This document shows, piece by piece, positions 1,759-32,496 of a stretch of 32,496 bases of DNA. The translations under genes and the position numbers were made by a program. The notes beneath the pieces were generated by a model. It saw only the letters and a program-made list of their open reading frames with translations. It searched no databases and was not told where the DNA came from. The stretch comes from a virus: IMG/VR virus record IMGVR_UViG_3300026519_000046, positions 1 to 32,496 of that record; one strand, written 5' to 3'. Numbering within the stretch: the stretch's first letter is position 1; each line of letters starts with the position of its first letter.

Positions 1759-2259
1759 TTATTGTTCAAAATCGTTCGAGATAAATTCCTTAACAGCCTT
1801 TGGTAGTTGATTAAGGGCTATCCCAACCCATGACTTAGAGATAGTTTTCTGATCACAGATAGTCTCCGCCAATGCAATAATTGTTTTTTCGTCTTCAGCT
1901 ATTGCGGTGCTGGATTTTGTAAGTCTTAGAGGAATCGTTCCCATAGGAAGCCGTTTATAGAAATATGCGCGTGCTTCGTCAAATCCAACAGTCTCTGCTG
2001 CGGTGATTATTGTTGGAGGGATATCAGGAACCACTACGATAAGCTCATCTCTTACATCACGATAGGTATCCTTAATATCTTCGAGGTATTCTATATAATC
2101 CTTTATTATAGCGTAGGCTTCTAGCCTAGTCGGACTCACCGCACGGCTATATATATTCTTGTTATACGGAATAACATAAAAATCCCCATCCTCATCTATC
2201 ATATCCGTTACTACTTCATCTACAAGTGAGACAGTACCAAACAACAACACACTATTCAT
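1759..2259 (-). CDS. Hypothetical protein, 166 aa
   Basis: The frame stays open further upstream, but the ATG at 2257-2259 has an excellent ribosome-binding site (GGAGAAGGTAT-ATG), and the extra upstream residues look like translated intergenic DNA, so I choose this start. The product begins MNSVLLFGTVSLVDEV, is soluble and mixed alpha/beta, with an acidic patch early and a helical C-terminal half. No motif is recognised. It lies downstream of the DNA polymerase fragment but is separated from it by a hairpin terminator, so it probably has its own promoter in 2260-2360. Confidence 0.7.
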   Translation of the reverse strand: MNSVLLFGTVSLVDEVVTDMIDEDGDFYVIPYNKNIYSRAVSPTRLEAYAIIKDYIEYLEDIKDTYRDVRDELIVVVPDIPPTIITAAETVGFDEARAYFYKRLPMGTIPLRLTKSSTAIAEDEKTIIALAETICDQKTISKSWVGIALNQLPKAVKEFISNDFEQ

Positions 2260-2350
2260 ATACCTTCTCCAGATTAGTTTCAATAAATTTTTTAACGACC
2301 TTGTATCGACCGACACGACTATATGACAATGGCTTAAAATAATTTGGGTA

Positions 2351-2388
2351 AAAAAATAAGCACTCAGACTCACTGCAACGAGTCTGAG
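2351..2388 (-). terminator. Terminator after the DNA polymerase gene
   Basis: On the minus strand, 8 bases past the polymerase stop codon, CTCAGACTC pairs with GAGTCTGAG (9 bp, 8-base loop; 2363-2388). It is followed by a T-rich run (the A-run at 2351-2356 on the plus strand). This is a standard intrinsic terminator closing the 6302-2396 transcription unit. Confidence 0.8.
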
Positions 2389-2395
2389 CCGAATA

Positions 2396-4513
2396 TTAAT
2401 AAATCTCAGAGATTAGATTATCAGGGTGTTTATGATATCCTAGTGTTTCAAGAATAATATAAAAAACATTGCACATATCTAATGTTACTTTCTTATAATC
2501 TATGCATGACATAATTTCTTCTGGAACACCAATATTTGCTACGATTCCTACGTCTAAGTATATGGTTGGTAACGTCTTTTTATTAGTACTTTCTAAGAAC
2601 ATTTTAAGTTTTCTTCTTATTGTGGTGTCCTCTATAGATGCTACCCAATTATTTAGCCTTGTTGTTGTAGTGAGTGTTGTATTGTATTTTACACAAATAT
2701 ATGGAGGTGTTGGCTCCATCTTATATTTATCTTTAAATACATTCATCCATAGTTCTTGACTATAATACGGCGTACTTAGTGGATTATTGGTGTACTCTTC
2801 TGGTGTTTTTATTTTAGCGTAATTATTAAAGTCGGGATCTCCCGCTTTTAAACGTCTAATTATCTCTTGCTCTAGTTCAGCTATACTTCTTACTTCATCC
2901 GTTAAGCATATTTTTTCATTATTTCCTATGGTTCTTAATATACGCTCCATCATGATGTGTGCTCGCTCTGTTAAATCTTGTGGTATCTTTGAGGCTATTA
3001 AATGTACACCCTTGAGTTCTAAATCTGGTTCTTTTAGAACGTTGGCTTCTTGTACTATTGTATTCGCATAGTAGTGTTTAGATACGTTAGCAGGAGACAT
3101 CAAAGACCATGTAAATTCATTCTTCATGGCCAGTGTTTCTTTGAACTCATCATCAACACCCATACATGCTGATACCATCTTGTGGTTATGTGATATGGTT
3201 TCTGTAGTAAGCGTCATCACAGCCGCCGCTAGTCCAGTTGTTTCTGCACTGAAAACAACTTCATCGTTGTTATAATAAGCCACCCAATCCTGATAAGTAC
3301 CGCAGGTACTATCTGTATCACTTAACAGTATCCCTTCTCTTACCATATCTGGTAAATAAGCCCCGTTGATTGGCATGTGTGGAGTACAACATATGGCATC
3401 TAATATATCCTTATGCTTATTAAATCCTTTTTGAACACCAATGCATGTGGATGCAAACACTGACAAAAGTTCTTTAGGAAATTCCTCATATCTGGTACCC
3501 ATTCCTCTACATTCATCCAAAAGGATATGTGTTACTAGATTAATAATTGGATCTGGTGTATTTCTTATATCCTCTATCGTACCATTATAATTAACATACT
3601 TTTTGCTAATGTCATCTAGAATTTCCTTACACTTTATTGGATTGAATTGTCTAAAGTGATAGAAGTCACCGGCATAGATATATACAGCTCTATCAATATC
3701 AGACATCTTTGATAAAAAATAATATATTCTATCTTCTTCCTTACTATTAGCCCAATACTTTCTGCTTGAGCGAAGAACTGTCTCCATTACTTCATCAGCA
3801 GTAGGGAGGGTTAAATTATGTTTTATTATAACGTTCTTAAGTTCTTGATGTTCTGGGTATATCATTGTCATTGCTATATCCTGTATTACTAGATCAGGAT
3901 TGCTATAATATCTAGCACCTAGGGCGAATCTTTCTGTAGTCGTATTACCTATTGCGGTGACAGTGCGTGTGGTTGATGTAAGTGTATAGTGTGCGCTATA
4001 GTCGTATAATTCACTCCCACGCACTGTTAATAAACCTGATACGGAATTATTGTCTCGTTTCATGACTTGTTGTAATAGATTTTGTGTTTTAAATACTGGT
4101 ATATTTCCTTTCGTTCTTGCTGCTATCGCTTTCTTTTTATGCACTCCTCTTTGTTTTATACGTCCTTGAGTAAACTTCACTAACACAGAACTTTGTTCTC
4201 TATAGTTTGTATAGCAAGTAAACGATGGAGCTACATTAAGGTTCTCTGTAATAAGACTTAGGATGTACCGTTCCAATGTGGTCTTGACAATCTCCTTGTC
4301 TCCTGTATCTGGATCTCTCTCATAAAAAATAGCAACAGGGTCTGTCTTCCTTGACATTACTTTATTTACTACGAAGTCTTCGCACTCCTGTGTTGATTTA
4401 TTTGTCACCGTCTCCAGATATTTTACCAATGCTTTCTTATATACTACTATAGGAGACCGGGTCCTGTGTTTCTTATACCAAGCATAAGGTTTTTCAAATA
4501 GATGGTTCGACAT
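2396..4513 (-). CDS. Family B DNA polymerase, C-terminal (fingers-palm-thumb) half of a split enzyme
   Basis: The 705-residue product carries family B polymerase landmarks in order. A region resembling the start of the fingers lies near residues 95-130. A motif B-like element KRDNNSVSG is at 152-160. Motif C, SDTDS, is at 398-402 with both catalytic aspartates. The KxY-like element SKHYYA is at about 478-483, followed by ELKGVHLIASKIP near 499-511, matching the palm-thumb junction (KIMGxExxxSxxP) of T4/RB69 polymerase. Motif A (DxxSLYPS) and the 3'-5' exonuclease motifs are absent; they would lie before residue 1. The protein therefore seems to be one polypeptide of a polymerase whose N-terminal part is encoded elsewhere, as expected for phiKZ-like phages. 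Its ATG overlaps the preceding stop by one base (TAATG), implying coupled translation. Function: replication of the phage genome, together with the missing partner. Confidence 0.8.
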   Translation of the reverse strand: MSNHLFEKPYAWYKKHRTRSPIVVYKKALVKYLETVTNKSTQECEDFVVNKVMSRKTDPVAIFYERDPDTGDKEIVKTTLERYILSLITENLNVAPSFTCYTNYREQSSVLVKFTQGRIKQRGVHKKKAIAARTKGNIPVFKTQNLLQQVMKRDNNSVSGLLTVRGSELYDYSAHYTLTSTTRTVTAIGNTTTERFALGARYYSNPDLVIQDIAMTMIYPEHQELKNVIIKHNLTLPTADEVMETVLRSSRKYWANSKEEDRIYYFLSKMSDIDRAVYIYAGDFYHFRQFNPIKCKEILDDISKKYVNYNGTIEDIRNTPDPIINLVTHILLDECRGMGTRYEEFPKELLSVFASTCIGVQKGFNKHKDILDAICCTPHMPINGAYLPDMVREGILLSDTDSTCGTYQDWVAYYNNDEVVFSAETTGLAAAVMTLTTETISHNHKMVSACMGVDDEFKETLAMKNEFTWSLMSPANVSKHYYANTIVQEANVLKEPDLELKGVHLIASKIPQDLTERAHIMMERILRTIGNNEKICLTDEVRSIAELEQEIIRRLKAGDPDFNNYAKIKTPEEYTNNPLSTPYYSQELWMNVFKDKYKMEPTPPYICVKYNTTLTTTTRLNNWVASIEDTTIRRKLKMFLESTNKKTLPTIYLDVGIVANIGVPEEIMSCIDYKKVTLDMCNVFYIILETLGYHKHPDNLISEIY

Positions 4514-6302: not shown

Positions 6303-6385
6303 GTTAAACCTCGTTTAGTTGGATTCACTAATTAAATATAGGAATGATCATAAGTGATCTGGTGAGATCACCTTGGAGTTAAAAA
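6303..6385. promoter_or_regulatory. Divergent control region with a hairpin before the protease gene
   Basis: These 83 bases separate the minus-strand unit from the plus-strand protease unit and must hold their promoters. A 7-bp inverted repeat, GTGATCT-GGTG-AGATCAC (6353-6370), ends only a few bases before the ribosome-binding site GGAG of the protease gene. It could be an operator or an mRNA hairpin next to the ribosome-binding site. Confidence 0.45.
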
Positions 6386-7027
6386 ATGAAACAACTGATG
6401 CCTTTTATGGTCTTTATTTCCACATTTCTACTGTCTTTCACAGCTAGTGCTGATATAGTAGAAGTACGCAGTACTGGGGACGATACCGTATCTACCGGTA
6501 CAGGCACCGTTATTAAAAAGAACTTAGTTATTACCAATTACCATGTTATAGAAAACATGAATAATATTTATATACGATATGGGGATATAAAACGAAAAGC
6601 AGTAGTAGTTCGCATTGATATTGAAAATGATTTGGCTTTATTAAAATCAAATACTGGAAAGTTAAAACCAGTACAACTTAGTGATAAGTTTAGTGGATAT
6701 GGAGTAGGTTATGGATATTTAGATGGAGTAAGACATAAGAGTAGTGAGGGTCAATATACTGTTCAGGGAACTAGGGTGATCTATACCTCTACGTTATATA
6801 AAGGTTTATCCGGAGGACCCATATATGATGGACGTAGTAAGAGAACAGTGGCGATCATATCTGCTATTGCTAGAGATAGTGAAAGTTGCTCAGATATAGT
6901 TAGTATAGGAATACCGGCACGAATTGTTATTGATTTCATCAACAACAAAAAACCCACAAGCCCTGTAAATTCAAAGGGTCCGCTTTCATTAGATATGACT
7001 AAATCTCTTCCAATTTTTGTTAAATAG
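6386..7027 (+). CDS. Exported trypsin-like (chymotrypsin-fold) serine protease, 213 aa
   Basis: Residues 1-22 form a Sec signal peptide: Lys near the start, hydrophobic core PFMVFISTFLLSF, and a likely cleavage after TASA. The mature part shows the trypsin/HtrA triad in order: TNYHVI with His53, NDLALLK with Asp82, and GLSGGPIYD with Ser142. Glycine-rich strands GTGTVI and VGYGYLDG and a late IPARIVIDFI helix are also typical of the S1C (DegP-like) core. There is no PDZ domain, so this is a minimal single-domain protease. Its predicted site is the periplasm or cell surface of the infected cell. Targets are unknown; host envelope proteins or competing phage factors are possible (inference). 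It starts the plus-strand unit that leads into TerL. The start is supported by GGAG upstream and by the signal peptide. Confidence 0.85.
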   Translation: MKQLMPFMVFISTFLLSFTASADIVEVRSTGDDTVSTGTGTVIKKNLVITNYHVIENMNNIYIRYGDIKRKAVVVRIDIENDLALLKSNTGKLKPVQLSDKFSGYGVGYGYLDGVRHKSSEGQYTVQGTRVIYTSTLYKGLSGGPIYDGRSKRTVAIISAIARDSESCSDIVSIGIPARIVIDFINNKKPTSPVNSKGPLSLDMTKSLPIFVK

Positions 7028-7035
7028 GTGGTATT

Positions 7036-7380
7036 ATGTTTATTAGTTTTGAAGCAATTTTCTACGAAAATGATGTTCCTAAAGAAAAAGATACATTGGT
7101 AATTTATGATAAGGAATGGCAAGAAGAAGCACAAAGGATATTAAAAGAAAAATATCCTTCTATAGAGTATGATCGTGAAGTATATAGAGAAATTACAGGT
7201 AATGTATTATCTGTAGAAGAAATTGATGAAGTTGTATTTGTTGGTAATAAAGGAACGATAGTTAATAATATATCAAAACTTAGAAGGATGGCAAAAGAAA
7301 CATCATTGATTATTGTATCTGAGGATATATCTTCTAATCTAAAACAAGTCTTGGACGGATTCTCTCGTGTCGTATCGTGA
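7036..7380 (+). CDS. Hypothetical protein, 114 aa
   Basis: ATG start eight bases after the protease stop, with AGGTGG upstream. The product is acidic and lysine/glutamate rich, with a pattern of alternating strands and helices (VIYDKEWQEEAQRIL, DEVVFVGNKGTIVNNISKL, TSLIIVSEDISSNL) that could be a small alpha/beta fold. No motif is recognised. Its end overlaps the next gene by 14 bases, so the two are probably translated together upstream of TerL. Confidence 0.7.
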   Translation: MFISFEAIFYENDVPKEKDTLVIYDKEWQEEAQRILKEKYPSIEYDREVYREITGNVLSVEEIDEVVFVGNKGTIVNNISKLRRMAKETSLIIVSEDISSNLKQVLDGFSRVVS

Positions 7381-8569
7381 TTTAACCGAGTTCTTTGAAA
7401 AAAATCTCCATGATTTAAAGATAAATAAAGCACTAGCTATATCTATTAAACAATATAGATACAGATGGATTAATAAAAAAGAAGATAATCATTTATTTCT
7501 TGGAAGCGATCTCACCGGAGTATATTCTCCAATGTTTACTTCTATAGATACACGACAATTCTTTACAGACGTCATTATGGAAGATAGAGATCATTTACAA
7601 CAAGAAGTCTATAAGGTAAAAGGAATTAATAAAAACTTCGAAGTATCTTCTAATATCTTTAATATCATTACAATGTGGATCATTAAAAACTTCATAGAAA
7701 AAAAGATGGAAGATGCAGCTTTGGATATGTTCCTTATATTCGCTTACAGGACGTTTGTATCGCTACACAGTAGGTACTTTATGTATCCTGTAACAAAGGC
7801 CATAGGAATGGCTGTAGTAGCTAGAATGAGTAATAAATACCTAGTCAAGAAGTTGGGGACATGGAATAACGTATTTATATACAGATCTAAGGATTTTATA
7901 AGCACTAAAGGTGTTAACCATAGAAGAATAATGAAGTTTAAAACAGATGATGTTGTTAAAGCAATAAATGATGGGAGTGGTAGATTAAAAAGCGCCTTAC
8001 TGCAAGTGTACTCTCTCACAGTAGAAGTTGCTAAACAGGGAGAGCAGATTACCACAAAGTCAACTACCATACAAGATGATGAGGGTGGAGAGATCATACG
8101 AGATATTACAGGAGGATATAGTAGTATATTAACAGACTTGCACGCCATTATAATAGATGAACATAAATTGGTTAATGAGACATATGTGGATGTTGTTGTA
8201 AAGATAGTCGGAGGTCATATAGACAAAACTGAACTTATTAGACTATTAAAATGGTTATCTAGTAATTTTACAGGAACCAAGGAATCTAAAAAAATAACAG
8301 AGGTGGTGGATAAAGCTATAACTATCACACTTAATTATTTAAATAGAAAAGGACAAACATCCATCAATGGATCTAATCTATATAACATCCTTACAGATAT
8401 AAAAAACGTATGGAGTGTTCGCAGAGAAGAAGATGATCAGCAAAAGTATAAAGAAGAACTAATAAGTATTGTTAAAAAGGTTAGTAAAAAGAAAGACATT
8501 AGTGTCGTGACATCTGTGTCTGTTGGTTTAATTACATATCTGTTTTTAAGAGCCTCTTATAAAAATTAA
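7367..8569 (+). CDS. Hypothetical protein upstream of TerL, 400 aa, probable C-terminal membrane segment
   Basis: The start is GTG at 7367 inside the previous gene; the ribosome-binding site is weak (GGACGGA). The product is long and largely helical. A run near residues 378-396 (VVTSVSVGLITYLFLRA), preceded by lysines, could be one transmembrane helix. Its stop overlaps the TerL ATG (TAATG at 8567-8571), so it is coupled to the terminase. phiKZ also has a protein of unknown function just before its TerL gene, and this may be its counterpart; that is inferred from position only. A packaging or portal-related role is not shown by the sequence. Confidence 0.7.
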   Translation: MSYRDLTEFFEKNLHDLKINKALAISIKQYRYRWINKKEDNHLFLGSDLTGVYSPMFTSIDTRQFFTDVIMEDRDHLQQEVYKVKGINKNFEVSSNIFNIITMWIIKNFIEKKMEDAALDMFLIFAYRTFVSLHSRYFMYPVTKAIGMAVVARMSNKYLVKKLGTWNNVFIYRSKDFISTKGVNHRRIMKFKTDDVVKAINDGSGRLKSALLQVYSLTVEVAKQGEQITTKSTTIQDDEGGEIIRDITGGYSSILTDLHAIIIDEHKLVNETYVDVVVKIVGGHIDKTELIRLLKWLSSNFTGTKESKKITEVVDKAITITLNYLNRKGQTSINGSNLYNILTDIKNVWSVRREEDDQQKYKEELISIVKKVSKKKDISVVTSVSVGLITYLFLRASYKN

Positions 8570-10692
8570 TGACTATACTATTCGAAGAAGACTGGATAAA
8601 GAAACATCCGGGCAGTATCATACATGAAACTACCATGAATGAATCTTTTCTACAGCTATCAGCCAAATATGAAAAAATGGGGATCAAGAATGCTAACTTT
8701 ATTTTGGCATTACACGATCCGTCATTAGCAGAAGTTGACCCACATGATCCAGACCTGGATATGGAGACTATTGCTAAGATAATAGTCGAAACTAAAAATA
8801 ATCCATGGTATTATATAAGAGAAATAGTACGCATACCTGTACAGGGCGCAGGAACTGCTGTTCGGTTTAAAGCCAGTAGAGGAACGATAGCTATCTATTG
8901 GTTATTTCTTAACCATATTACATCCATTGTTGTACAACCAAGACAAACTGGTAAAACAGTAACTACCTGTAGTCTAATGAGGTGGTTATTAAACATACGT
9001 TGTACACATACGAATATGAACTTATTAACATTATCGGAACCACTAAGAACAGACACCATAGAAACGTTAAAGGAATTAGAAGAACATTTGCCGTATTACT
9101 TCCAATTAACTACAGCGCAAGATCTTAATAATACTCATATGGTAACGGTAAATGCGTTAGGGAACGTTTACCGTGGATTTCTTCCACAGAGGTCTATCAA
9201 GGCTGCTGCAAACGTTATGCGCGGTCATACGGCTCCTATCTTCCATATGGACGAAGTAAGTAATGTATATAATATCGACATAACCATGCCTGCCGCTCTA
9301 GCCGCAGGTACCAACGCCAGAGACGTGGCGGCGGCGTCTGGTAACCCATATGGAACGATATTAACAACCAACGCTGGTAAAAAGGATGATAGAAGCGGAA
9401 AGTTTATATACGGCTTATTACAAAAAGCCATGGTATGGACAGAAAAGCTATTTGATTGTGAGAACCACGAAGAATTAGAGAAAGTAATTAGAGCTAATTC
9501 AACAGACGATGGTTTAATGGTTAATGCCTCATTTAACCACCGACAATTGGGTTATACTGATGAATGGTTAAAGAAAAAGATCGAAGAAGCCATTGCGTCC
9601 GGTGAGGATGCTGATAGGGACTTCTTAAATAAATGGACTTCTGGTAAATCAGCTTCTCCATTAACAAAAGAAGATATAGAAAGAATAGTAAATTCCAGGA
9701 TAACTGATCCGTATACTGAAATATCGCGAATTAATGGATTTGCAACACGATGGTATATTAACCAAAAACTGATAAATAATGCTGATAAATCGGGAGGATT
9801 AATAGCCGCCATTGATACATCTGATGCCGTTGGTAATGATGATATTAGTTTGGTAATAAGAAATGTAAGTGATGGATCAGTAGTAGCGGCGGGTAATTTT
9901 AATGAAACCAATCTAATTACATTTTCAGAATGGTTAATGGACTGGTTGTTAAGATATGAAAAACTGGTTCTTATTATAGAAAGACGGTCATCTGGGTTAA
10001 TGATGATGGATAGTTTAGCTACAATGATGATTAGTAAGGGGATGAATCCATTTAGACGTATGTTTAATTGGATAGTACAAGACGCAGATGCTGATCCCAA
10101 ATTATCGAATACTGTTCTCAAATCACATAGTTCTCAGTTATCAGAATTATATGCTAAACATAGAAAACGTTTTGGCTTTGCTACATCAGCCAGTGGGCGA
10201 GCTAGTCGCGATCATTTATACGGGGCTATTCTAACACAAGCTGTTAAGTATACAGGTAAATTTGTAAGAGATTCTGTCTTGATAGATCAATTAACAGGAC
10301 TTGTTGTAAAGAACGGAAGAATAGATCATGAGGATGGTGAACACGATGATATGGTCATTGCGTGGCTTCTATCATATTGGTTGCTAACTCAAGGAAAACA
10401 CTTAAAAGAATATAATTTAGATACATTACAGATTATGAGAAACAGACCTGTTGAAGAGTCTGAAGATCCTAAGAAAATGTATGAAAATGTTCAAGCGGTA
10501 AAATTAAGGAAAGAAGCTGGGGAAATTATTAAGAAGCTGCAAAATGAAAAGAACCCATATTTAGTAAAAATACTTGAACGAAAGTTAACACTAGTAATGA
10601 ATGAATTGCAATCAACGGGCGCTATCGAAGAGTTCTCAATAGAGGAACTTTTAGAGAGAATAAGAGCCTCGTCGAAAAAATCTAAATTTTAA
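8569..10692 (+). CDS. terL: Terminase large subunit (TerL)
   Basis: This is the DNA-packaging motor ATPase and headful nuclease, acting at the portal vertex of the prohead. In the 707-residue product the ATPase comes first: Walker A QPRQTGKT (residues 123-130) and Walker B IFHMDE with Asp228-Glu229. A TTNAG element near 266-270 fits the coupling (motif III) position. The RNase H-like nuclease follows, with AAIDTSD (Asp416), LIIERRSSG (Glu471) and GEHDDMVIAW (Asp593/Asp594). The QPRQTGKT form is typical of T4-like and phiKZ-like TerL proteins. The length is that of jumbo-phage TerL, without an obvious intein or insertion. No small terminase is evident beside it. Start ATG overlaps the upstream stop (TAATG). 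Confidence 0.95.
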   Translation: MTILFEEDWIKKHPGSIIHETTMNESFLQLSAKYEKMGIKNANFILALHDPSLAEVDPHDPDLDMETIAKIIVETKNNPWYYIREIVRIPVQGAGTAVRFKASRGTIAIYWLFLNHITSIVVQPRQTGKTVTTCSLMRWLLNIRCTHTNMNLLTLSEPLRTDTIETLKELEEHLPYYFQLTTAQDLNNTHMVTVNALGNVYRGFLPQRSIKAAANVMRGHTAPIFHMDEVSNVYNIDITMPAALAAGTNARDVAAASGNPYGTILTTNAGKKDDRSGKFIYGLLQKAMVWTEKLFDCENHEELEKVIRANSTDDGLMVNASFNHRQLGYTDEWLKKKIEEAIASGEDADRDFLNKWTSGKSASPLTKEDIERIVNSRITDPYTEISRINGFATRWYINQKLINNADKSGGLIAAIDTSDAVGNDDISLVIRNVSDGSVVAAGNFNETNLITFSEWLMDWLLRYEKLVLIIERRSSGLMMMDSLATMMISKGMNPFRRMFNWIVQDADADPKLSNTVLKSHSSQLSELYAKHRKRFGFATSASGRASRDHLYGAILTQAVKYTGKFVRDSVLIDQLTGLVVKNGRIDHEDGEHDDMVIAWLLSYWLLTQGKHLKEYNLDTLQIMRNRPVEESEDPKKMYENVQAVKLRKEAGEIIKKLQNEKNPYLVKILERKLTLVMNELQSTGAIEEFSIEELLERIRASSKKSKF

Positions 10693-10709: not shown

Positions 10710-11141
10710 ATGGCTCGTAAAGATGTTATTGTTTTCGATAATCAAGAGGGTTTTCCAGGTAGTGCTGATACAGTGCAAGGAAATCCTCCTGACTTCTTTT
10801 TACTATATCAAGATTTGATAGATATGCTAACCGCGTCGTTACAAAGTGTTAAGTTTATAAATAAACCAATTATTGGGGCGTCAAACCAATCCCCACTGAC
10901 ACTGTCTGGTAACGGATATACAACCACGCAATATTGGATAGGTCCACATACGAAAACCGTTTGGGAACTAGCATCTGATAATATTTTCTCTAACATAGTA
11001 GAAACAAGCACAGTTACTTCTGGAGATCTTTATACATGGAATCCCACAACAAATACACCAGGAACTTATTATGCTAGGGTACGGTACGCATCTCCACCAG
11101 AAACCTCTGTTTGGTCAGATTGGATCGAAATCACTATTTAA
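10710..11141 (+). CDS. Small fibronectin-III-like virion or adhesion protein, 143 aa
   Basis: After an N-terminal stretch of about 50 residues comes one fibronectin-like module: an opening KPIIGASNQSPLTLSG strand, central TVWELASDNIFSNIV, then GTYYARVRYASP and VWSDWIEI. The same pattern (W-E-x-A-x-D-xx-F, YYxRVRY, S-x-W-S) recurs in the next three genes and in the minus-strand 1275-residue protein. Such modules are common on phage tails and capsids and may bind surface carbohydrates. The leader TTTTTTTGGAG resembles that of the next gene. There is no signal peptide, so it is presumably a virion part. Confidence 0.75.
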   Translation: MARKDVIVFDNQEGFPGSADTVQGNPPDFFLLYQDLIDMLTASLQSVKFINKPIIGASNQSPLTLSGNGYTTTQYWIGPHTKTVWELASDNIFSNIVETSTVTSGDLYTWNPTTNTPGTYYARVRYASPPETSVWSDWIEITI

Positions 11142-11160: not shown

Positions 11161-11634
11161 ATGGCTAACATCACATATCATATCGATAAAACAAACGAGT
11201 GTAGCGGGAATACAGACGCCACTAATTTTGCTGGTGGGGATGTTAATGATCTTGTTCCCGCCAATCTGGTTATTTACTTAACTGCTCAGGTACTTAATCC
11301 GCCAATTAAATTACCAGATGTTATTTCACCACCACCTAGTCCTAGCGGAACACCTGGGTATGATTCGACACAACAAATTATATTTTCAGCGACAGCGTAT
11401 GAGACAGAAGATATATTTATAGGACAACATACTGCATCTACTTGGCAAGTTGGAGATAGTAGTGATTTTTCAAATGTAGTTTATGAATGGCTATCCGATA
11501 CAACAAATTTAGAAACACTGACTATACCCCCCAATACAATGGGACCGGGACAGTATTTATATCTACGTGTTCGTTATGAATCTGGTTATTATACATCTGG
11601 TTGGACTGGTGCTAGGAGGTTTAGAACACTATGA
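11161..11634 (+). CDS. Small fibronectin-III-like virion or adhesion protein, 157 aa
   Basis: It is a sibling of the 143-residue gene before it: a variable N-terminal stretch with a proline-rich linker (SPPPSPSGTPG), then one module with STWQVGDSSDFSNVVYEW, QYLYLRVRYESG and TSGWTGARRF. Ribosome-binding site GGAG after a T-run. Its TGA overlaps the next ATG (ATGA, 11631-11634), so it is coupled to the first large Kelch-bearing protein. Likely part of the same fibre or surface assembly as its neighbours. Confidence 0.75.
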   Translation: MANITYHIDKTNECSGNTDATNFAGGDVNDLVPANLVIYLTAQVLNPPIKLPDVISPPPSPSGTPGYDSTQQIIFSATAYETEDIFIGQHTASTWQVGDSSDFSNVVYEWLSDTTNLETLTIPPNTMGPGQYLYLRVRYESGYYTSGWTGARRFRTL

Positions 11635-14600
11635 CTAGTCGTAGAGACGGAAATCGTCCTCAGAATAAGTTCTATCGTGACGTATATATGAAAACCAAGG
11701 GATGCATAAGTATCTCTGGATTAGCGGACTTCTTAGGAGAAATCCGTTTTGATGAATATGTTCAACGATTACGTTTCGCAGAACTCATTAAAACTTTTGA
11801 TACATTACCAGCACCACCTGTTGGTCAAGCAAGGGTTCTTGGTCCAGCAAAAGATGAATTAATAGCGGACGCAAGTAACCTTGTTGTTCAAATCGATCCA
11901 AATAGTTTTACCGGGGATGGTGGTCTTGAACCATTAACAATAACGGCAACACGATATCAGGTATCTACAGATCCCAATTTCCAAAATATTGTCTATGATA
12001 ATACGGATACAACTCAATTCTTTGGGAAACTAATACCTTTACCGCCGACAGGTGGCGTGGAACAGCAATACTATATTAGAACCCAATTCGTTACTAACAA
12101 TTTTGTTGGTGGGTGGAGTGAAGAAATCCCATTTCGATGGAATTTAGATAGTGGTATAACCACACCAACAATAACTAATGAAGTAAATAGATTAATATTA
12201 GCAACACCTTATACAACATTTGGTAACTTTAATGAACCACAAATTTCTTCAGATTGGGAAGTTGCGCTAGATGACCAATTCCAATCCATGGTCTATACTA
12301 GTTACGCAGACACTATTAATCTACAAACTATTACATTAGCATCTTTAACAGCTGGACAATACTACTGGGTAAGAGTTAAATACCATGCCACCACAAGAAG
12401 TTCTGATTGGTCGCCACCTTTTCAGTTTTTAGCACAAACTTATTTCCCGGCACCGCAAATCGTTTACCCTACTTTTCATGATGCTGGTACTAATAGTATC
12501 GTAGTGGCACCATACGCTGGTTTATATGCTAATCCAGAAATAGTAATCGAGATGCGCTATACGGATGATCCAGATAGTCCTAACCCTATATGGACAGCAT
12601 GGACAAATTTTCAGCATATTTTTGAACCATACGGGTATTATGATATCTATATGGATACCGCACCTCCTGGTGGGAAACGGAGGTATGAGTGTAAAGCACG
12701 ATGGAGATATTTGGATGCTGCTACTGGACAGTATGTTTATTCTACATATTCTAACACATATTATACTATAATAGATTACACGTTATATAGTGGACAAGGT
12801 GGGTATATTACATACGGAATAAGTAATACATATAAAAGTAGCTATTATTTAACAGGAGCCGCTACGTTTACAGGTCATAGTTTAACACAAATAGAGTATC
12901 AAGCCTTTTCAGATAGAGCATTGACGAATATGGTACATACTGCAACTACTCCTATCTCTGGGATTAATAGCCATTATTATACATCTCCATACTGGGCTTG
13001 GAAAAGAAACGGCTCTGCTTTCTTTTGGGTGCCGGATAATGTATACTATATTAGAGCTAGAAAAATAGACAGTAATGGTATTCCTACTTCTTGGTCGGAT
13101 GTTAGAGTGCTTGATCTTACCGGTCTTGGGTATCCGAATAAACCAACGATTATATTACCTATAAACGGCGATACCAATGTTAGTAGTCCTGTATTCCAGT
13201 TAACACCAGTATCTTTTATTACTGATGATAAAGATAAACTATATGTAAAATTCTTTGGAATACAACCAAAATTAGGAACCAGCCTGGATGGAAATGGAGA
13301 TCCTGCTAATCTTTTGGAATATGAACCATACCAGTACAATGATCCGGCTAAATGTTACAAATACATTACTGGGGAATTGGATCCGAGCACAGTATATCAT
13401 CTGCAAATGCGTTACTTGTTTGAACCCTATTACTGGGGAACAGACTGGACCAACACTGTTACATTTACAACATCGGCTACTCCAATACCAAGAACACCCG
13501 GTATTAACCAACTATTAATAACTGGAAGCACCACTATTGGGGTACCACAAAATCCGACTATTGTTAATTTTGATAGATTCTATACGCCAAGAACTGATAT
13601 ATCTGCTGGACTACAATTTAATATTTATGATGTTTTAACAAACGAATTAGTTGCTTATTATATTCCAGATCCTACAAACGCTTGGTATGGTAAGACTGGT
13701 GTTAGTAAAAAACTGAACTTAGCGACATTAGTTAAGGGAAGACAATACAGAATTAGATATAGAGAAGTGAGAAGAATAAATGGCTCCAATTCTGGTAACT
13801 CTATTGCTACAAAATGGAACGAAAAGACATTTACAGTAACACGAACAGATGATATTAACTTAGGTAATGGTGCAGAGGGAACGAATACTGGAATTATAAA
13901 ATGGGCTAGATATGGAGCTGTATTTGGACAACTGGATTACAGTAATGTATATAAAGGATCAAGCTATATATATTCTGGTATTTTTGGAAACGCTTTCCAT
14001 ATCAGTTATGCTGACTGTAATAGTGTTCCCTGTACATGGGGTGTTACTAGAATAGATAGCGCGGTTATGCCTAAAGGAGCGTTAAATGTAGTATATAACC
14101 CAGATACAGATAATGTAGAATTTTGGGGTAATAGAGAAGCACATTCTAATACTACAGCACAGTATTATAATTTTACTACAGATTCGTATAGTGCTGGACA
14201 AGATTGGTCTGCCGGTTTCAGTAACTATAATTGTAGAAATATGATATATATTCCTGGACAGGGCAGATGGTTTTCTGGAGGAACATTTCAAACAGGAGAC
14301 CTTATGGATAGTGGAAGAACATATATGTGGAATAATGGTTCAGCCACACCTGTTGAGAAAACACAAAAACCAAATAAAGCATGGAGTTTTGGACAAGCAT
14401 ATAAACAAAATACGAACAGTATAATTACCATCGGAGGTACCGCTTCTAATAACCCAGCATTTCCACAGTATGTAATACAAACTGGAATTGAGGAATATGA
14501 TATTGCAACAGACACATGGACTTTGATAGGGGATATGCCTGGGCCGTTGCGAGATACACAGTGTTGTTGGATGACAGGTACTAATTATATTCTTATTACA

Positions 14601-14795
14601 AAAACAGGTTTTACTGTGGATTTAGGTAGTTTTGGTGGAGATATGGAACATTACACATTTATATATGATACTTTAAACAATACTTTTGATATAATAAGTG
14701 ATGAAGGTAATCTTGGTAATGCTCCGTGGTATTATAACGGATATTTATTTTATAGTGGGTTCAGGTATTTAGGCGCGTATGCTTTTGGAACGTAG
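11631..14795 (+). CDS. Large fibronectin-III / Kelch-like fibre protein, 1054 aa
   Basis: Residues 1-60 form a polar N-terminal region (KTKGCISISG, DEYVQRLRFAEL) that matches the corresponding part of the next gene and is probably the virion-attachment end. About six fibronectin-like modules follow (roughly 60-745), recognised by DWEVALDDQFQSMVY, YYWVRVKY and SSDWSPPFQF type elements; domain edges are approximate. The last 300 residues have Kelch-like blades, for example EEYDIATDTWTLIGDMP, with repeated Gly-rich strands and Trp, suggesting a beta-propeller. Kelch propellers at the tips of such proteins often bind ligands, so this is a good candidate receptor-binding or adhesion fibre. No enzymatic motif was seen. 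Confidence 0.8.
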   Translation: MTSRRDGNRPQNKFYRDVYMKTKGCISISGLADFLGEIRFDEYVQRLRFAELIKTFDTLPAPPVGQARVLGPAKDELIADASNLVVQIDPNSFTGDGGLEPLTITATRYQVSTDPNFQNIVYDNTDTTQFFGKLIPLPPTGGVEQQYYIRTQFVTNNFVGGWSEEIPFRWNLDSGITTPTITNEVNRLILATPYTTFGNFNEPQISSDWEVALDDQFQSMVYTSYADTINLQTITLASLTAGQYYWVRVKYHATTRSSDWSPPFQFLAQTYFPAPQIVYPTFHDAGTNSIVVAPYAGLYANPEIVIEMRYTDDPDSPNPIWTAWTNFQHIFEPYGYYDIYMDTAPPGGKRRYECKARWRYLDAATGQYVYSTYSNTYYTIIDYTLYSGQGGYITYGISNTYKSSYYLTGAATFTGHSLTQIEYQAFSDRALTNMVHTATTPISGINSHYYTSPYWAWKRNGSAFFWVPDNVYYIRARKIDSNGIPTSWSDVRVLDLTGLGYPNKPTIILPINGDTNVSSPVFQLTPVSFITDDKDKLYVKFFGIQPKLGTSLDGNGDPANLLEYEPYQYNDPAKCYKYITGELDPSTVYHLQMRYLFEPYYWGTDWTNTVTFTTSATPIPRTPGINQLLITGSTTIGVPQNPTIVNFDRFYTPRTDISAGLQFNIYDVLTNELVAYYIPDPTNAWYGKTGVSKKLNLATLVKGRQYRIRYREVRRINGSNSGNSIATKWNEKTFTVTRTDDINLGNGAEGTNTGIIKWARYGAVFGQLDYSNVYKGSSYIYSGIFGNAFHISYADCNSVPCTWGVTRIDSAVMPKGALNVVYNPDTDNVEFWGNREAHSNTTAQYYNFTTDSYSAGQDWSAGFSNYNCRNMIYIPGQGRWFSGGTFQTGDLMDSGRTYMWNNGSATPVEKTQKPNKAWSFGQAYKQNTNSIITIGGTASNNPAFPQYVIQTGIEEYDIATDTWTLIGDMPGPLRDTQCCWMTGTNYILITKTGFTVDLGSFGGDMEHYTFIYDTLNNTFDIISDEGNLGNAPWYYNGYLFYSGFRYLGAYAFGT

Positions 14796-14803
14796 GTTTT
14801 TTT

Positions 14804-17800
14804 ATGGCTAAGAAACGATATAATTCAAATGCTAAATGGAAGACAAAAGGTTGTCTATTAAATGGACAAATAGAAGCAGACTATTTGGGAAATGTTCCGT
14901 ATGATGGATATGTGGGTAATAAGACATATAATAGGTTGGTGTCTGAATTAGAATCTGCCAACAGTATAATTGATAAACCTGTTATCACAAGTCCTGTTAA
15001 CGGATTTGTAGTAACAGGTAACTCTCTTGTAGTATCGTCTAGTCAATATAGCATAACCGGTATTGAAGATAAACAACATGTTTCTACCACATATCAGATA
15101 GCTACGGATAATACGTTCACCAATCTTATATATGATAGTACTACAGCTACACCAACAACTACAAAGATTATACCAATTAATACTAATGGAAGCTTTGTTT
15201 TAAGAATACGTTATAATTCAAATAACTGGACAAGTGAATGGTCTGATATAGTTAATTTTAGTAGAAATTATATTCCTGGAATATTGACACCTTCTATATT
15301 AACAGACGGTGGTGTAAATAGGCTTTTAGAATCTTCTGCGTTTGGTACGGATCCTGGGTTTGTTGGTGCGCATGATTCATCCGACTGGGAAGTAGCATTA
15401 GATAGTGGCTTTACTTCCGTTATTCTATCCGCCTATAGCGATTCTATACAGAAAACGTCCTTAAATATTTCAAACTTATTAACAGGTACCCAATATTATG
15501 CTAGGGTAAGATATAGATCTGGTGCTACTGTAAGTAGTTGGTCAAATCCTTATGGTTTTATAACACAAGTGTATTTACCACCACCAGAACTAACGTATCC
15601 TAGTTTACAAGGAACTGATCCTATATTAGATGTATTCCTAAAGGATTATAATGGCGGTCCTCCAAGGACAGATGTAGTAGTACGTATCGTTGTTAAACGA
15701 CGCTACACACCTACCGCTACCTGGTTTACATCGTTGAACACCACCTATACCATAAATGATTATGGAAACTATAGTGCGCCAGCATATACAATATCACAGT
15801 CAATACCAAAAACGTACTACGAAATAACCATAACGTATGAACACACTCCTACTAATACAGCTAGTGATCCTACGGTTATTAATCTAACATTATATAAAAA
15901 TAGTTGGGCAATACAACCAACAAGTCTTTATAAAGCCCCAACAGGAGAATTGTTTTATAAAATGTATGATCCATTATATTATGGACAATCTATACCAATA
16001 ACCGCAGTACGTTGGCAAATATTCGACGATAGACGTTTTATAAATCCGGTATATGAAGTAGTATATAATTACGATGGTAGTAATGATATAGATAGACGGT
16101 TCTATCCGTCACCAGTTTATGAAGAATCTTATGGTAAGGAGATTCACTATTTTGATATCGGTAAATACTACTATGTGAGATGCCAATATATATCTGGTGG
16201 AATAACATCTCCGTGGTCATCCTCTAGAATATTTGATCTTAGAAACAAATACTATATACAGAAACCAAACATAGTGGCTCCATTTAATGGAGAAACTAAT
16301 GTGAATGATACCGTGGTTAGAATGACTAATGCTATTACCGTGTCGACTGCACAAGAACCAACCAGAAGTAACCTATTCGGTGTGCATGTAGTTATAGGAG
16401 ATAGTATCGATCAAAATGGAGAAATAAATAACGTTATAGAAGATGCGTATTATTATAATCCTAGAGAAACTAGATCTGGAATATATCCTACTGGCGCGCT
16501 TAGTAATAATAAAACATTTTATATTAAAGTAAGATATATATGTAAACCCTTAGGGGACAAATGTTTCAGTGAATGGTCTGATATTGTTAGTTTTACTACT
16601 GGTAATAGCATCTCTAATTTCCCAGATGTTTCTGACTTTAAAGTTGGTGGAATGACTACGTATGGGGTTGCATCTAGACCGTTAATATATCAAGCTAATA
16701 GACTCTATAATGAAGATCAAAATAAATCCGCTATATCTTACTATATAACTGACGTCAATGGTAAATTAGTTCAGATAGGTGGGTGGGAGTCAAGTATCTT
16801 AAATTACACACTAAATGTTCCAGACGTCTATATGTATTTTGTTAGAGAAGACCTAAATTTAAATCAAACATATAGGTTGTATTATAGAAGAAATATTGTT
16901 ACAAAAGAAATAGGAGCACTAACAAGCAATGTATCTAGTACCTGGAGCAGTGTACAAATAACACCTACTAGACAATTTCATGCAAGAGAAAGAATGACCG
17001 ATCCGCCAAATCTGGGGACAAGAACGATACGCACCGTGTATGCCAAAGGATCCGCCGTTAACTTTAACGAATATATTATACAGTTTGCTGATAATAATAT
17101 AGATATGCAGGTGGAGTATTATAATGTGGCGTCAGACAGTTGGACTATCGGAGCATCGACTTCCAGAAGAAGAAATAGATATACGGCTATCTTTAATGAA
17201 TATACTGGACTAGCAGAAGTATATGGCCATAGGACAGATAGTAACTCAAATCTTGATGGTAAAAATTACAACGTATTAACAAATACATGGAGTCCTGGAA
17301 ATACATTATATCCAAACTATACACTGGTTAGGGACAACTATGGGGTATATCATCCTGGAAAAGGATCAATTATTAGTCTAGGGAGATTTTATCAAAGCGG
17401 GGGTGTATTGGATGGAATAACAGTTATGTGGGATGATGTTACGGGGGTAAGATCAGAAAAGCCACCGCTGTTTACACCTATATGGAATAGCCAGCCGGTA
17501 GTAGGGAGCGATAATAAACTATATTATCTTGGAATGTCCTATACGGCGGCAGTAGGTACAAGTTATGACGTATGGAGCCTTGATGTAATAAATTCTTGGG
17601 GTGGTTGGGGTTATCATGATACTCTTCCATTACCGATAAAGAACGGATACTGCATTAAGCTAAAGGACGATATAATGGTAGTAAATACATTAGGAAAACC
17701 CAATAGATTTAGAAACATACTTTGGACCTATGATATAAATAATAAAGTACTTGAGCCTATTTATACAATAGCCGTGCGTGGAGTCTATAGGTTGTCTGGT

Positions 17801-17866
17801 AAAGGAGATGGAATATGTTACGCGTCATATCGGGCAAGACTATATAGATTCAAATTGATTGTATAA
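14804..17866 (+). CDS. Large fibronectin-III / Kelch-like fibre protein, 1020 aa
   Basis: It is a paralogue of the preceding 1054-residue protein and starts nine bases after it. The N-terminal region shares the KTKGC element and a YDGYV tract, then modules with SSDWEVALDSGFTSVIL, YYARVRYRSG and SSWSNPYGF run to about residue 720. The C-terminal 300 residues carry Kelch-like strands (YYNVASDSWTIGAST, NYNVLTNTWSPGN, TYDINNKVLEPI). The two proteins keep the same architecture but differ greatly in module sequence, as expected for duplicated, diversified host-binding proteins. It ends the plus-strand unit at a strong hairpin. Role as an alternative or partner fibre is inference. Confidence 0.8.
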   Translation: MAKKRYNSNAKWKTKGCLLNGQIEADYLGNVPYDGYVGNKTYNRLVSELESANSIIDKPVITSPVNGFVVTGNSLVVSSSQYSITGIEDKQHVSTTYQIATDNTFTNLIYDSTTATPTTTKIIPINTNGSFVLRIRYNSNNWTSEWSDIVNFSRNYIPGILTPSILTDGGVNRLLESSAFGTDPGFVGAHDSSDWEVALDSGFTSVILSAYSDSIQKTSLNISNLLTGTQYYARVRYRSGATVSSWSNPYGFITQVYLPPPELTYPSLQGTDPILDVFLKDYNGGPPRTDVVVRIVVKRRYTPTATWFTSLNTTYTINDYGNYSAPAYTISQSIPKTYYEITITYEHTPTNTASDPTVINLTLYKNSWAIQPTSLYKAPTGELFYKMYDPLYYGQSIPITAVRWQIFDDRRFINPVYEVVYNYDGSNDIDRRFYPSPVYEESYGKEIHYFDIGKYYYVRCQYISGGITSPWSSSRIFDLRNKYYIQKPNIVAPFNGETNVNDTVVRMTNAITVSTAQEPTRSNLFGVHVVIGDSIDQNGEINNVIEDAYYYNPRETRSGIYPTGALSNNKTFYIKVRYICKPLGDKCFSEWSDIVSFTTGNSISNFPDVSDFKVGGMTTYGVASRPLIYQANRLYNEDQNKSAISYYITDVNGKLVQIGGWESSILNYTLNVPDVYMYFVREDLNLNQTYRLYYRRNIVTKEIGALTSNVSSTWSSVQITPTRQFHARERMTDPPNLGTRTIRTVYAKGSAVNFNEYIIQFADNNIDMQVEYYNVASDSWTIGASTSRRRNRYTAIFNEYTGLAEVYGHRTDSNSNLDGKNYNVLTNTWSPGNTLYPNYTLVRDNYGVYHPGKGSIISLGRFYQSGGVLDGITVMWDDVTGVRSEKPPLFTPIWNSQPVVGSDNKLYYLGMSYTAAVGTSYDVWSLDVINSWGGWGYHDTLPLPIKNGYCIKLKDDIMVVNTLGKPNRFRNILWTYDINNKVLEPIYTIAVRGVYRLSGKGDGICYASYRARLYRFKLIV

Positions 17867-21938: not shown

Positions 21939-21960
21939 AGAAAAAAATAATAAGTAATTA

Positions 21961-21992
21961 TCCACCTACCCACAGTATTGTGGGTAGGTGGA
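21961..21992. terminator. Bidirectional hairpin terminator after the tail tube gene
   Basis: A 14-bp stem (TCCACCTACCCACA / TGTGGGTAGGTGGA) with loop GTAT. Read on the minus strand it is followed by a T-run (the A-run at 21942-21948 on the plus strand), so it also terminates transcripts coming from the structured segment and minus-strand genes on its right. Confidence 0.85.
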
Positions 21993-22002
21993 CTTCTTTA
22001 CA

Positions 22003-22185
22003 TTATCCGGTCCACCGTAAATCATTATCGTCCTGATAATTTAAATACCAGGAGATATTAATTCCATAGACTACTACTGTGGTCCTTAGACAGTAGTCTA
22101 TATGTGGGCATCCATACCCACTGACCATACTGACTAGACATGATCTCTGCTCCGATGCTCTACGCACCAGATCACTGGGGGACAT
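22003..22185 (-). CDS. Possible small protein, 60 aa
   Basis: ATG at 22185 preceded by AGGA seven bases upstream (CCAGGATATATA-ATG); 60 residues including several Cys and a tryptophan-rich end (SWYLNYQDDNDLRWTG). A 20-codon GTG frame directly upstream ends in a TAATG overlap with it. However, the same DNA is full of inverted repeats (see the ncRNA entry), so the frame may be fortuitous. No family recognised; real gene and noncoding RNA are both open. Confidence 0.35.
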   Translation of the reverse strand: MSPSDLVRRASEQRSCLVSMVSGYGCPHIDYCLRTTVVVYGINISWYLNYQDDNDLRWTG

Positions 22186-22330
22186 TATATATCCTGGTAA
22201 TATTCCATTGAAATCGCAGTCCTCAAAAGAGGACCGGTATAGTCCACCTAACTAGCTGGTGGGGCGCTACCCTCCGGGTACAGCGGGTCATGTCCTATCC
22301 GAAGATAGTCGGATCTTCCAATCACCTAGG
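22003..22330 (-). ncRNA. Candidate structured noncoding RNA
   Basis: On the minus strand this stretch packs many hairpins: CTATC-TTCG-GATAG, a UUCG loop closed by C-G; GTACCC-GGA-GGGTA; CCACC...GGTGG; GTCCTC-TTTT-GAGGAC; GTGGG...CCCAC; TAGACTACTGT with a bulged partner; TGATCT...AGATCA. A longer-range stem (TACCAGGA near 22192 with TCCTGGTA near 22047) closes the last three into a multibranched fold. It is GC-richer than its surroundings and is followed at 21961 by a terminator with a T-run on this strand. No known RNA family (tRNA, tmRNA, RNase P, group I core) was recognised. The call rests on visual pairing only. Confidence 0.4.
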
Positions 22331-22337
22331 TAGATTA

Positions 22338-22375
22338 GATAAATAGCTAGTATATGGAAATACTAACTATTTATC
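22338..22375 (-). repeat. Hairpin repeat, copy 1
   Basis: A 15-bp stem interrupted by one mismatch: GATAAATAG, mismatch, TAGTAT, loop ATGGAA, and the complementary arm. The core TAGTATATGGAAATACTA is identical to copy 2 at 22964-23001. It overlaps the last codons of the paralogue ending at 22363. There is no clear T-run, so it may be an RNA processing or stability element rather than a terminator. Confidence 0.65.
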
Positions 22376-22656
22376 GGCTCGACCGACACGACATATAAAT
22401 CCTTTGAAAATCTAGTAGTTCCTATATGTCTGGTGAGATATGGTTCTAATCCAAGCGATCTTCCTTGCTCTGGACTAATAAACCATATAATTTCTCCATC
22501 GTAATATTTACCAGTCAAAGGTCCGTTAGATACAAACTTAGTTCCATTTCCAAATTCCTTCATCTTTTCTAACAGACTTTCTAACTCACCTTTAAATTCT
22601 ATATATCTAATCGCATCATATGGTTCTCTAACTAATATCTTACCTTCCAGCTTCAA
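22363..22656 (-). CDS. Small protein of a tandem paralogous pair, 97 aa, TTG start
   Basis: A longer frame opens at an ATG at 22719, but that ATG lies inside the coding end of the upstream paralogue. Alignment of the two copies places the start at TTG 22656, with GGAG five bases upstream, matching the GTG start of the sister gene. The product (LKLEGKILVREPYD...) is strongly similar to the sister throughout, sharing MKEFGNGT, SNGPLTG, WFISPEQG and RHIGTTRFSK. It extends about eleven residues further at the C-terminus (DLYVVSVEPINS). No known family, signal peptide or membrane segment. Confidence 0.7.
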   Translation of the reverse strand: MKLEGKILVREPYDAIRYIEFKGELESLLEKMKEFGNGTKFVSNGPLTGKYYDGEIIWFISPEQGRSLGLEPYLTRHIGTTRFSKDLYVVSVEPINS

Positions 22657-27494: not shown

Positions 27495-27826
27495 TCACGG
27501 GATATTTATTCGTTCTAACGCACTTAGTGGGGTTTCTCCATAATCTCCATAGTACTTTACTCTTCGGAATATGTGGTGCCAGGCGTGGCCCAATCTGAAT
27601 ACGGATAGTAATTCAGATTGGTAGTATCTCCGATGCTAGATTCTACCAAATTTGTTCCAGCAGCATCACTATAGAAATACCAATCAGTAGAAACGTGCGT
27701 TTGATCTGAAGCGATTTCTACATAAGACGGATCAACAGTAATTGTTAAAAGAGCTTCACCATGATAAAAATTATTTGGTACTGTTATTGTTGGTGTAACT
27801 ATCGGCTTTAAATTAATAAAGCTCAC
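27495..27826 (-). pseudogene. Single-module fibronectin-III-like gene with a frameshift
   Basis: GTG at 27826 overlaps the protease stop (GTGA), so it is coupled to that gene. The frame gives STDWYFYSDAAGTNLVE and then stops at 27557 after GTTYSEE. Just before this stop, a -1 step at Tyr (27571-27569) restores the missing end of the module: FRRVKYYGDYGETPLSALERINIP, stop at 27495. This is exactly the YYxRVRY and closing-strand pattern seen in the sister genes. The full product would be about 111 residues. The cause could be a natural one-base deletion, a sequencing error or frameshifting; no canonical slip heptamer is present at the junction. Confidence 0.7.
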
Positions 27827-28584
27827 CAATCAGTACCCCATATCTTTTTATCAGTTGACTTATATTTCTCCTTAATATGATTCAATGTTTCTAAAGATTC
27901 CATAGATAAGGATTGCTGAGGTGCGATATTCAGTACTTTGTTAATCGCATCTAGAGTAACAACACCTTCCGAGATATTATTATAGATAGATTCCATTGAT
28001 GGACTATCCCATTTAGTAGCTTGTGCGATTCCTGGTTCAGATACAAAATCCCAGGAAATAATATCCTCGAAGTATTTATATAAACAACCTGATTGAAACT
28101 TATCTCTTGTAAAAGAACGAACTGAAAACGCTGGATTAATAGATGGTGTATTAAGATATTCTTCCAGATTATCCTTATATACCCCTACGGGTTTAACCAT
28201 ACCTATAATCGCTACAATATTATTAGAGTTTTCCCCTAATGGACTATAATTAGACTCAAGTCTTACTTCTTTAATATGCCCACAGTGTCTGGTTTCTTCT
28301 GTCCTAACCACTCTTTCCAACCATTGAGAATCCGTCATACCTGGTTCTCTCTTAGGATGTCCTTGCTCCATATACAAATGTCCGTTTCTTATTCTTCGTT
28401 GCAATATGCTGTTAGGAGAAAACATTTCCATATTTCCTTCCTTTGGATAATAAGCCCCACCGCTATTCCTTACACCAAGTGCACCTAGCACTACTTCATA
28501 ATAACCTTCGCTATCAGGTTTAAGTTCTCCTTTCTTACCACTACTTGCCAATCTACTAATAGTAATATAATAAGGTTTTGACAC
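27823..28584 (-). CDS. Prohead maturation protease (T4 gp21 / phiKZ gp175 type)
   Basis: The 253-residue product resembles the herpesvirus-like/T4 gp21 serine protease that cleaves scaffold and capsid proteins inside the prohead. Visible elements are GHLYMEQGHPKRE, with His76 in the position of the conserved G-x-x-x-H-P motif, and SINPAFSVRSF, with Ser154 as the probable nucleophile before an Arg-Ser pair. A third catalytic residue was not identified. phiKZ-like phages have such an enzyme (gp175, and gp245 of SPN3US), so the family fits. Start ATG has AGGAG upstream. Its end overlaps the broken fibronectin gene. The next genes upstream are likely head genes by position. Confidence 0.8.
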   Translation of the reverse strand: MSKPYYITISRLASSGKKGELKPDSEGYYEVVLGALGVRNSGGAYYPKEGNMEMFSPNSILQRRIRNGHLYMEQGHPKREPGMTDSQWLERVVRTEETRHCGHIKEVRLESNYSPLGENSNNIVAIIGMVKPVGVYKDNLEEYLNTPSINPAFSVRSFTRDKFQSGCLYKYFEDIISWDFVSEPGIAQATKWDSPSMESIYNNISEGVVTLDAINKVLNIAPQQSLSMESLETLNHIKEKYKSTDKKIWGTDW

Positions 28585-32165: not shown

Positions 32166-32496
32166 CAGACCGCAACATTACTTGCAGCTTTAGCTTTCAC
32201 TAAAGAATAGACCATATCTTCATCCTCTATACAGAGGAGCCTCCCGCTTCGGGCACGCTTGTACCCTACACCGCGCTACCGGTTGGTCGTTGAACTTTTC
32301 CCATATCTAATACGACTTAGGGACTTAGCTGCTGATTGCCTATTATAATCCGAATTATTTTCAAACATTCACGCTTGTCCTTTCGAACTACGTTGTAGTT
32401 AATTCGACTTTAAGGGTTTCCAGCAATTCAAGAGGTTAATCTTAGCAATTACTCGCTAAGAGGACTTTAGACCTAATTAAATCATTAGTTAGTACA
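32166..32496 (-). ncRNA. Group I intron (3' and core portion) in the RNA polymerase beta gene
   Basis: On the minus strand the four conserved elements occur in the right order. P is AATTGCTGGAAA (32428-32417); Q is AATCAGCAGCTAAG (32337-32324); R is GTTCAACGACC (32295-32285); S is GAAGATATGGTCT (32221-32209). A P2-like hairpin (CTTAGC...GCTAAG) precedes P, and P8-like stems lie between R and S. I place the 3' splice site after the terminal G at 32166, since the beta frame resumes at once (ATA GTA GCG). The 5' splice site is at or beyond the window edge. The core is compact, with no internal reading frame; a homing endonuclease could lie further 5' or be absent. Confidence 0.88.

Follow-up and report, generated by a model that had tools for sequence, protein, structure and literature searches.

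A predicted exported, PDZ-less trypsin-like protease encoded upstream of the terminase gene in a phiKZ-like jumbo phage fragment

Cellular counterparts of the protein reported here are the HtrA family proteases (DegP, DegQ, and DegS; MEROPS S1C) and the Mycobacterium tuberculosis protease Rv3671c (MarP), which possesses N-terminal membrane helices. HtrA domains that lack PDZ domains are expected to escape the regulation by which substrates trigger DegS and DegP. PDZ-less trypsin-like proteases are also annotated in Rhizobium phages 16-3 (p036), RHph_TM3_3_14B, and RHph_X2_25 (PHROG 9683, “protease”). Trypsin-like proteins with an N-terminal hydrophobic segment occur in the Pootjesviridae phiM9, AF3, RL2RES, N34, and Y68, and Zobellviridae phage KZY1 and Vibrio phage LP.1 likewise encode single-domain trypsin-like proteins with a hydrophobic N-terminus. 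Across this set, the proteins have 205–299 amino acids and one trypsin-like domain each. The literature searched gives no function for any phage trypsin-like protease of this kind; one paper names a trypsin-like serine protease in its gene list for a cluster of alphaproteobacterial phages (PMC10783043).

Here, we describe such a protein in the window, by which we mean the whole 32.5-kb stretch of DNA analysed, an IMG/VR record. The window carries a divergent family B DNA polymerase, a phiKZ-type large terminase subunit (TerL; best identity in the phage collection 45%, to Burkholderia phage FLC9), a tail sheath, a Peptidase_S80, and an RNA polymerase beta subunit. It is thus part of the genome of a phiKZ-like jumbo phage. 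The protease gene (Table 1) has an ATG start, 213 codons, and a GGAG ribosome-binding site 7 nt upstream, and its GC3 of 0.24 is inside the range of the remaining window genes. A previous sequence-only reading had placed it upstream of the terminase, and it indeed heads a tight plus-strand run that ends in TerL: a gap of 8 nt precedes the gene for a 114-aa protein, which overlaps the phrog_2921 gene by 14 nt, and this in turn overlaps the TerL gene by 1 nt. Such spacing suggests late co-expression of the protease with the packaging operon. We considered whether the protein is the phage head maturation protease and rejected this identity based on the lack of an S80 match and the presence of a separate S80 gene. 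As this capsid protease is separately present, capsid maturation does not need the protein described here.

Table 1. Positions in the window of the protease gene, its parts, and the neighbouring or related genes.
Feature	Position	Strand	Basis
Predicted exported trypsin-like (Trypsin_2, S1C-like) protease, 213 aa; H53, D82, S142; without PDZ	6386..7027	+	ORF, profiles, alignment, model
Divergent intergenic region; GGTGAgaTCACC inverted repeat and GGAG ribosome-binding site preceding the protease	6303..6385	.	Sequence reading
Predicted Sec signal peptide, residues 1–22 (MKQLMPFMVFISTFLLSFTASA), cut between A22 and D23	6386..6451	+	Rule-based; kept in ortholog
Trypsin_2 domain match, residues 38–157	6497..6856	+	Pfam
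Subfamily motif GYGVGYGYLDGVRHKSSEGQYTV, residues 104–126, in the shortened Asp-Ser segment common to the L191 ortholog	6695..6763	+	
114-aa protein, 8 nt downstream of the protease; kept at the same place in sister contig L191 (36%)	7036..7380	+	
phrog_2921 protein; homolog of the “virion-associated head protein” of Serratia phage Moabite	7367..8569	+	
Terminase large subunit, phiKZ-like type	8569..10692	+	
Peptidase_S80 head maturation protease, which serves the capsid of this phage and has no relation to the protease at 6386–7027	27823..28584	-	

Pfam Trypsin_2 (PF13365) matches the protein over the whole profile (1–144 of 144; E = 1.3e-12) with 49.1 bits, above the gathering cut-off of 27.6 bits, and PF00089 (Trypsin) matches it as well (E = 1e-4). 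From the sequence alone, it had been described as a 213-residue protein with a complete His-Asp-Ser triad (53, 82, 142) and no PDZ domain. This description is borne out: the three triad columns are invariant H, D, and S in 62 of 62 aligned sequences, the triad order is correct, with G-x-S-G-G around the serine, and the trypsin domain is the sole Pfam match, without any PDZ domain. At the C-terminal end, where the HtrA/Do family has its PDZ domain, the protein has about 20 residues modelled with low confidence. Matches to two NCBIfam models are partial and below the cut-offs, with 46.9 bits against a curated cut-off of 416.2 for Do/HtrA (TIGR02037) and 42.4 bits against 250 for MarP, covering part of its 390 positions. 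The best sequence matches among solved structures are Rv3671c/MarP, which ranks first, DegQ, and HtrA (top E about 4e-6), and identity to cellular relatives is only ~19–31%.

AlphaFold2 with an alignment of 61 homologs gave a trypsin fold (pLDDT 81.9, pTM 0.77) in which confidence is high in the core and low in the signal region and over the 20 C-terminal residues; without an alignment, the model was meaningless (pLDDT 31.7). The nearest structures found by Foldseek in the PDB are DegP (E = 1.9e-12), DegS-deltaPDZ (TM-score 0.71/0.72), and MucD. The fold prediction that the sequence-only reading had proposed as a check returned the double beta-barrel of trypsin. This result supports the fold but overlaps with the sequence evidence, for the aligned homologs were themselves trypsin-like (HtrA-type) and bias the model toward that fold. 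Together, profile, triad, and fold point to a trypsin-like member of clan PA with predicted proteolytic activity. The protein shares with the HtrA family the catalytic barrel and triad (TM-score ~0.7) and the partial TIGR02037 match, but it lacks the PDZ domain, scores far under the TIGR02037 cut-off, and has a shorter barrel segment.

A scan with the TerL alignment uncovered a sister contig, IMGVR_UViG_3300028908_000020 (L191, also numbered G001), whose gene order is colinear with most of the window and whose TerL is 71% identical to that of the window. At the same place it encodes an ortholog of the protease (3826–4446; 206 aa; 37% identity over 189 aa; 39.0 bits with Trypsin_2), and the gene order from protease to TerL is identical. 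The ortholog keeps the signal peptide, the triad, and G-x-S-G-G; given 37% overall identity, against 71% for TerL, the signal and the active site appear to be under constraint. Rapid divergence as a mark of an arms race was rejected, as small neighbouring genes diverge about as much (32–36%). The syntenic ortholog also led us to reject host contamination or a chimera, and with the phiKZ-like flanks and matching GC3 it supports the earlier statement that the protease is phage-encoded. In L191, a possible HNH homing endonuclease gene (2939–3739, minus strand; weak HNH_3 match) lies between the protease gene and its upstream neighbour.

The two proteins share the motif G-x-GV-x-x-GYLDGV-[RK]-HK, located between the catalytic Asp and Ser. 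Spacing between these residues is 60 in the window protease, where the L191 ortholog aligns without gaps, compared with 69–85 in the 61 cellular homologs (9 to 25 longer) and 66–71 in ten other phage proteins. This spacing is shorter than in all compared homologs and thus marks the lineage. Since the segment is shortened relative to all 61 aligned cellular homologs, the enzyme could be inactive or narrowly specific.

The N-terminus of the window protease, MKQLMPFMVFISTFLLSFTASA followed by DIVEV, has n, h, and c regions as in a signal peptidase I substrate, with K2, a hydrophobic stretch at residues 4–18, and ASA followed by D at residues 20–23. Signal peptides were called by a crude, simple rule, not by SignalP; the protease alone passes it among the 26 window genes, and so do 220 of 10,000 shuffles of the protease (2.2%). 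The stronger argument is comparative: in the L191 ortholog (MIKSFIATILLLITTNAYA followed by DIILI, with the cut between AYA and DI), both the position and the pattern of the signal recur. The signal peptide noted in the earlier reading is predicted by rule and kept in a diverged ortholog.

Used as the sole query, the window protein brought up no close relatives in IMG/VR or in GTDB genomes, nor any relative at E 0.01 in 50,697 phage records. A scan with the two-sequence alignment of the window and L191 proteins recovered L191 again and nothing else. Trypsin_2 is present in none of 13 complete phiKZ-like genomes and is absent from 79 of 80 other phiKZ-like contigs, of which many are fragments, L191 being the sole positive. 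Burkholderia phage FLC9 gp22, in a comparable position, is a different protein without a signal peptide. Sequences from the flank of the IMG/VR prophage contig L018, from L019, from MW462191, and from Acinetobacter MD-2021a look bacterial and were not counted as phage proteases.

Beyond the phiKZ-like phages, an IMG/VR scan with the alignment of the rhizobial and other phage proteins listed above revealed 121 loci encoding relatives, and 77 of the 80 phage-family ORFs examined have a hydrophobic N-terminal segment. The window protease, with an N-terminal signal or anchor and one Trypsin_2 domain in a phage genome, fits the description of this group. Hence the homologue search suggested in the sequence-only reading yielded, besides the L191 ortholog, rhizobial and other phage relatives. 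That reading had regarded secreted proteases as outside the normal tailed-phage toolkit; they are uncommon, but they are not foreign to tailed phages, as the architecture recurs in rhizobial temperate phages, Pootjesviridae, a Zobellviridae phage, LP.1, and many IMG/VR loci.

The PHROG 9683 proteases (215–299 aa) resemble the window protein in being phage-encoded, with a hydrophobic N-terminus, a single trypsin-like domain, and no recognised PDZ domain. They differ in sequence (~18–23% identity for the phage group), in Asp-Ser spacing (69–70 versus 60), in having paired cysteines that the window protease lacks, and in belonging to an unrelated phage type. The PHROG 9683 profile matches the window protease over positions 53–229 of 233 (E = 2.5e-8) with 34.7 bits, versus 173–245 for two rhizobial members. 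Its higher scores with cellular-type models (46.9–49.1 bits) suggest independent capture. The Pootjesviridae proteins (~230 aa) share with it the N-terminal hydrophobic segment, the H-D-S residues, and an adjoining head gene, but their Asp-Ser segment is longer, as is the His-Asp segment in four of the five. By these sequence comparisons, the window protein forms its own, shorter lineage among the predicted exported phage trypsin-like proteases without PDZ, and adds a new case to a rare but known kind. In other members of the set, p036 of phage 16-3 (3776–4675, plus strand, in fetched locus L100) has Glu in the catalytic Asp column and may be altered or inactive, and a “hypothetical protein” of LP.1 (1779–2396, plus strand, in fetched locus L109) looks like a lipoprotein-type trypsin-like protease, with a lipobox-like VTGC and GMSGGG. 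Pootjesviridae keep the protease gene beside the major capsid gene, on the opposite strand.

The best plasmid match (E = 2e-4) is a Trypsin_2 protein from a stress gene cluster of Pseudomonas IncP-2-type megaplasmids, which has the HVIE-M motif in common with the window protease. Unlike the window protease, it is 379 aa long, has another N-terminal domain and no signal peptide, and lies in another gene cluster. We rejected these longer, unsignalled proteins as close kin, the match being a generic superfamily one. On the plasmids (3.3–10.5 kb; loci L004 and L005) the cluster comprises ATP-grasp, the Trypsin_2 protein, a phosphoribosyltransferase, StiP-like, HpcH, HAD, and TerD, and the same cluster is found on the flank of L018.

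The window protease is probably a Sec-exported, signal-cleaved, single-domain serine endopeptidase of the periplasm or envelope that folds into a trypsin-like barrel of HtrA/DegS type, with export and fold being predicted and activity inferred. It would be co-transcribed with the packaging operon, as the tight gene spacing suggests. On export, signal peptidase would cut between A22 and D23, so that the mature protein would begin with the first strand of the barrel, an arrangement predicted here and kept in the ortholog. The barrel, with its H53-D82-S142 triad, would then cleave periplasmic or envelope proteins. Each of the actions named in the sequence-only reading, on the host envelope, on superinfecting phage, or on the release of progeny, may apply. 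We favour a use late in infection, in which the protease would prepare the host envelope for release by clipping exposed or unfolded envelope proteins; as a role this is a tentative guess among several, ranked ahead of superinfection exclusion and, after that, of envelope quality control or stress signalling. The missing PDZ regulation would suit an enzyme required solely while the host cell is dying. In superinfection exclusion, the exported protease would act in the periplasm and cut a surface receptor, or else tail proteins or ejected proteins of an incoming phage. We regard this as unlikely, even though periplasmic proteins of phages often serve in exclusion or in the timing of lysis, as T4 Spackle (PMC7677548) and T4 RI (PMC8385771) exemplify, and though the gene is accessory (one of 80 phiKZ-like contigs) and its kind recurs in accessory regions of temperate phages. 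The place of the gene in the packaging operon suggests that it is expressed late in infection, at a stage where exclusion is less important, and the literature searched holds no exclusion protease of this type.

Less likely again is envelope quality control or stress signalling, in which a constitutively active, DegP/DegS-like enzyme would remove misfolded proteins from the envelope or trim an anti-sigma factor and so keep the host working during infection. The nearest folds (DegP, DegS-deltaPDZ, MucD) and profiles (Do/HtrA and MarP families) agree with such a role, whereas the absence of the PDZ domains that regulate HtrA proteases and the low identity to cellular relatives argue against it. 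We consider it improbable that the hydrophobic N-terminus has no signal function and that the enzyme processes phage structural proteins as a virion- or head-associated protease. The operon shared with TerL and a head-associated protein, and the similar genes adjoining the capsid gene in Pootjesviridae, would suit this explanation, but an S80 head maturation protease is already present, the canonical, positively charged AxA-type signal is kept in the L191 ortholog, and a hydrophobic N-terminal segment is nearly general among the phage-family ORFs. A neutral or captured host gene without a phage role (a recent moron or an assembly chimera) is the least probable of all: the empty search of the phage records would be in line with it, but it is largely refuted by the diverged, syntenic L191 ortholog with its active site kept, and the GC3 is phage-like.

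A small phiKZ-like lineage may have its own compact, unregulated periplasmic protease, marked by the shortened Asp-Ser segment and the GYLDGV-HK motif, captured independently of the rhizobial ones and remodelling the host envelope during infection, be it to aid release or to act against competing phages. This reading is doubtful; if true, it would reveal an unrecognised envelope-directed activity of phiKZ-like phages. If the window protease is active, it would show that unrelated phages (rhizobial temperate phages, Pootjesviridae, and phiKZ-like jumbo phages) have each acquired a pared-down protease of HtrA type and directed it to the periplasm. The triad and signal peptide of the window protease allow a simple mutant test.

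The window has several other features. A group I intron (Rfam RF00028, 100 bits; 32188–32488, minus strand) is located just upstream of the ORF for the C-terminal part of the RNA polymerase beta subunit (31050–32057), so this polymerase gene is probably intron-split. The intergenic region 21955–22380 is strongly structured (RNA folding z-score -6.6 on the plus strand and -6.9 on the minus strand), with a 14-pair hairpin at its start; it has no Rfam family and no similarity in L191. Two tandem paralogs of ~1,000 aa (11631–14795 and 14804–17866, plus strand) are 27% identical over 939 columns, and both match one single stretch of L191. Finally, a module of ~70–100 aa is repeated in five proteins, two of them small (10710–11141, 11161–11634, 11631–14795, 14804–17866, and 23593–27420), and these are possibly virion or fibre modules.
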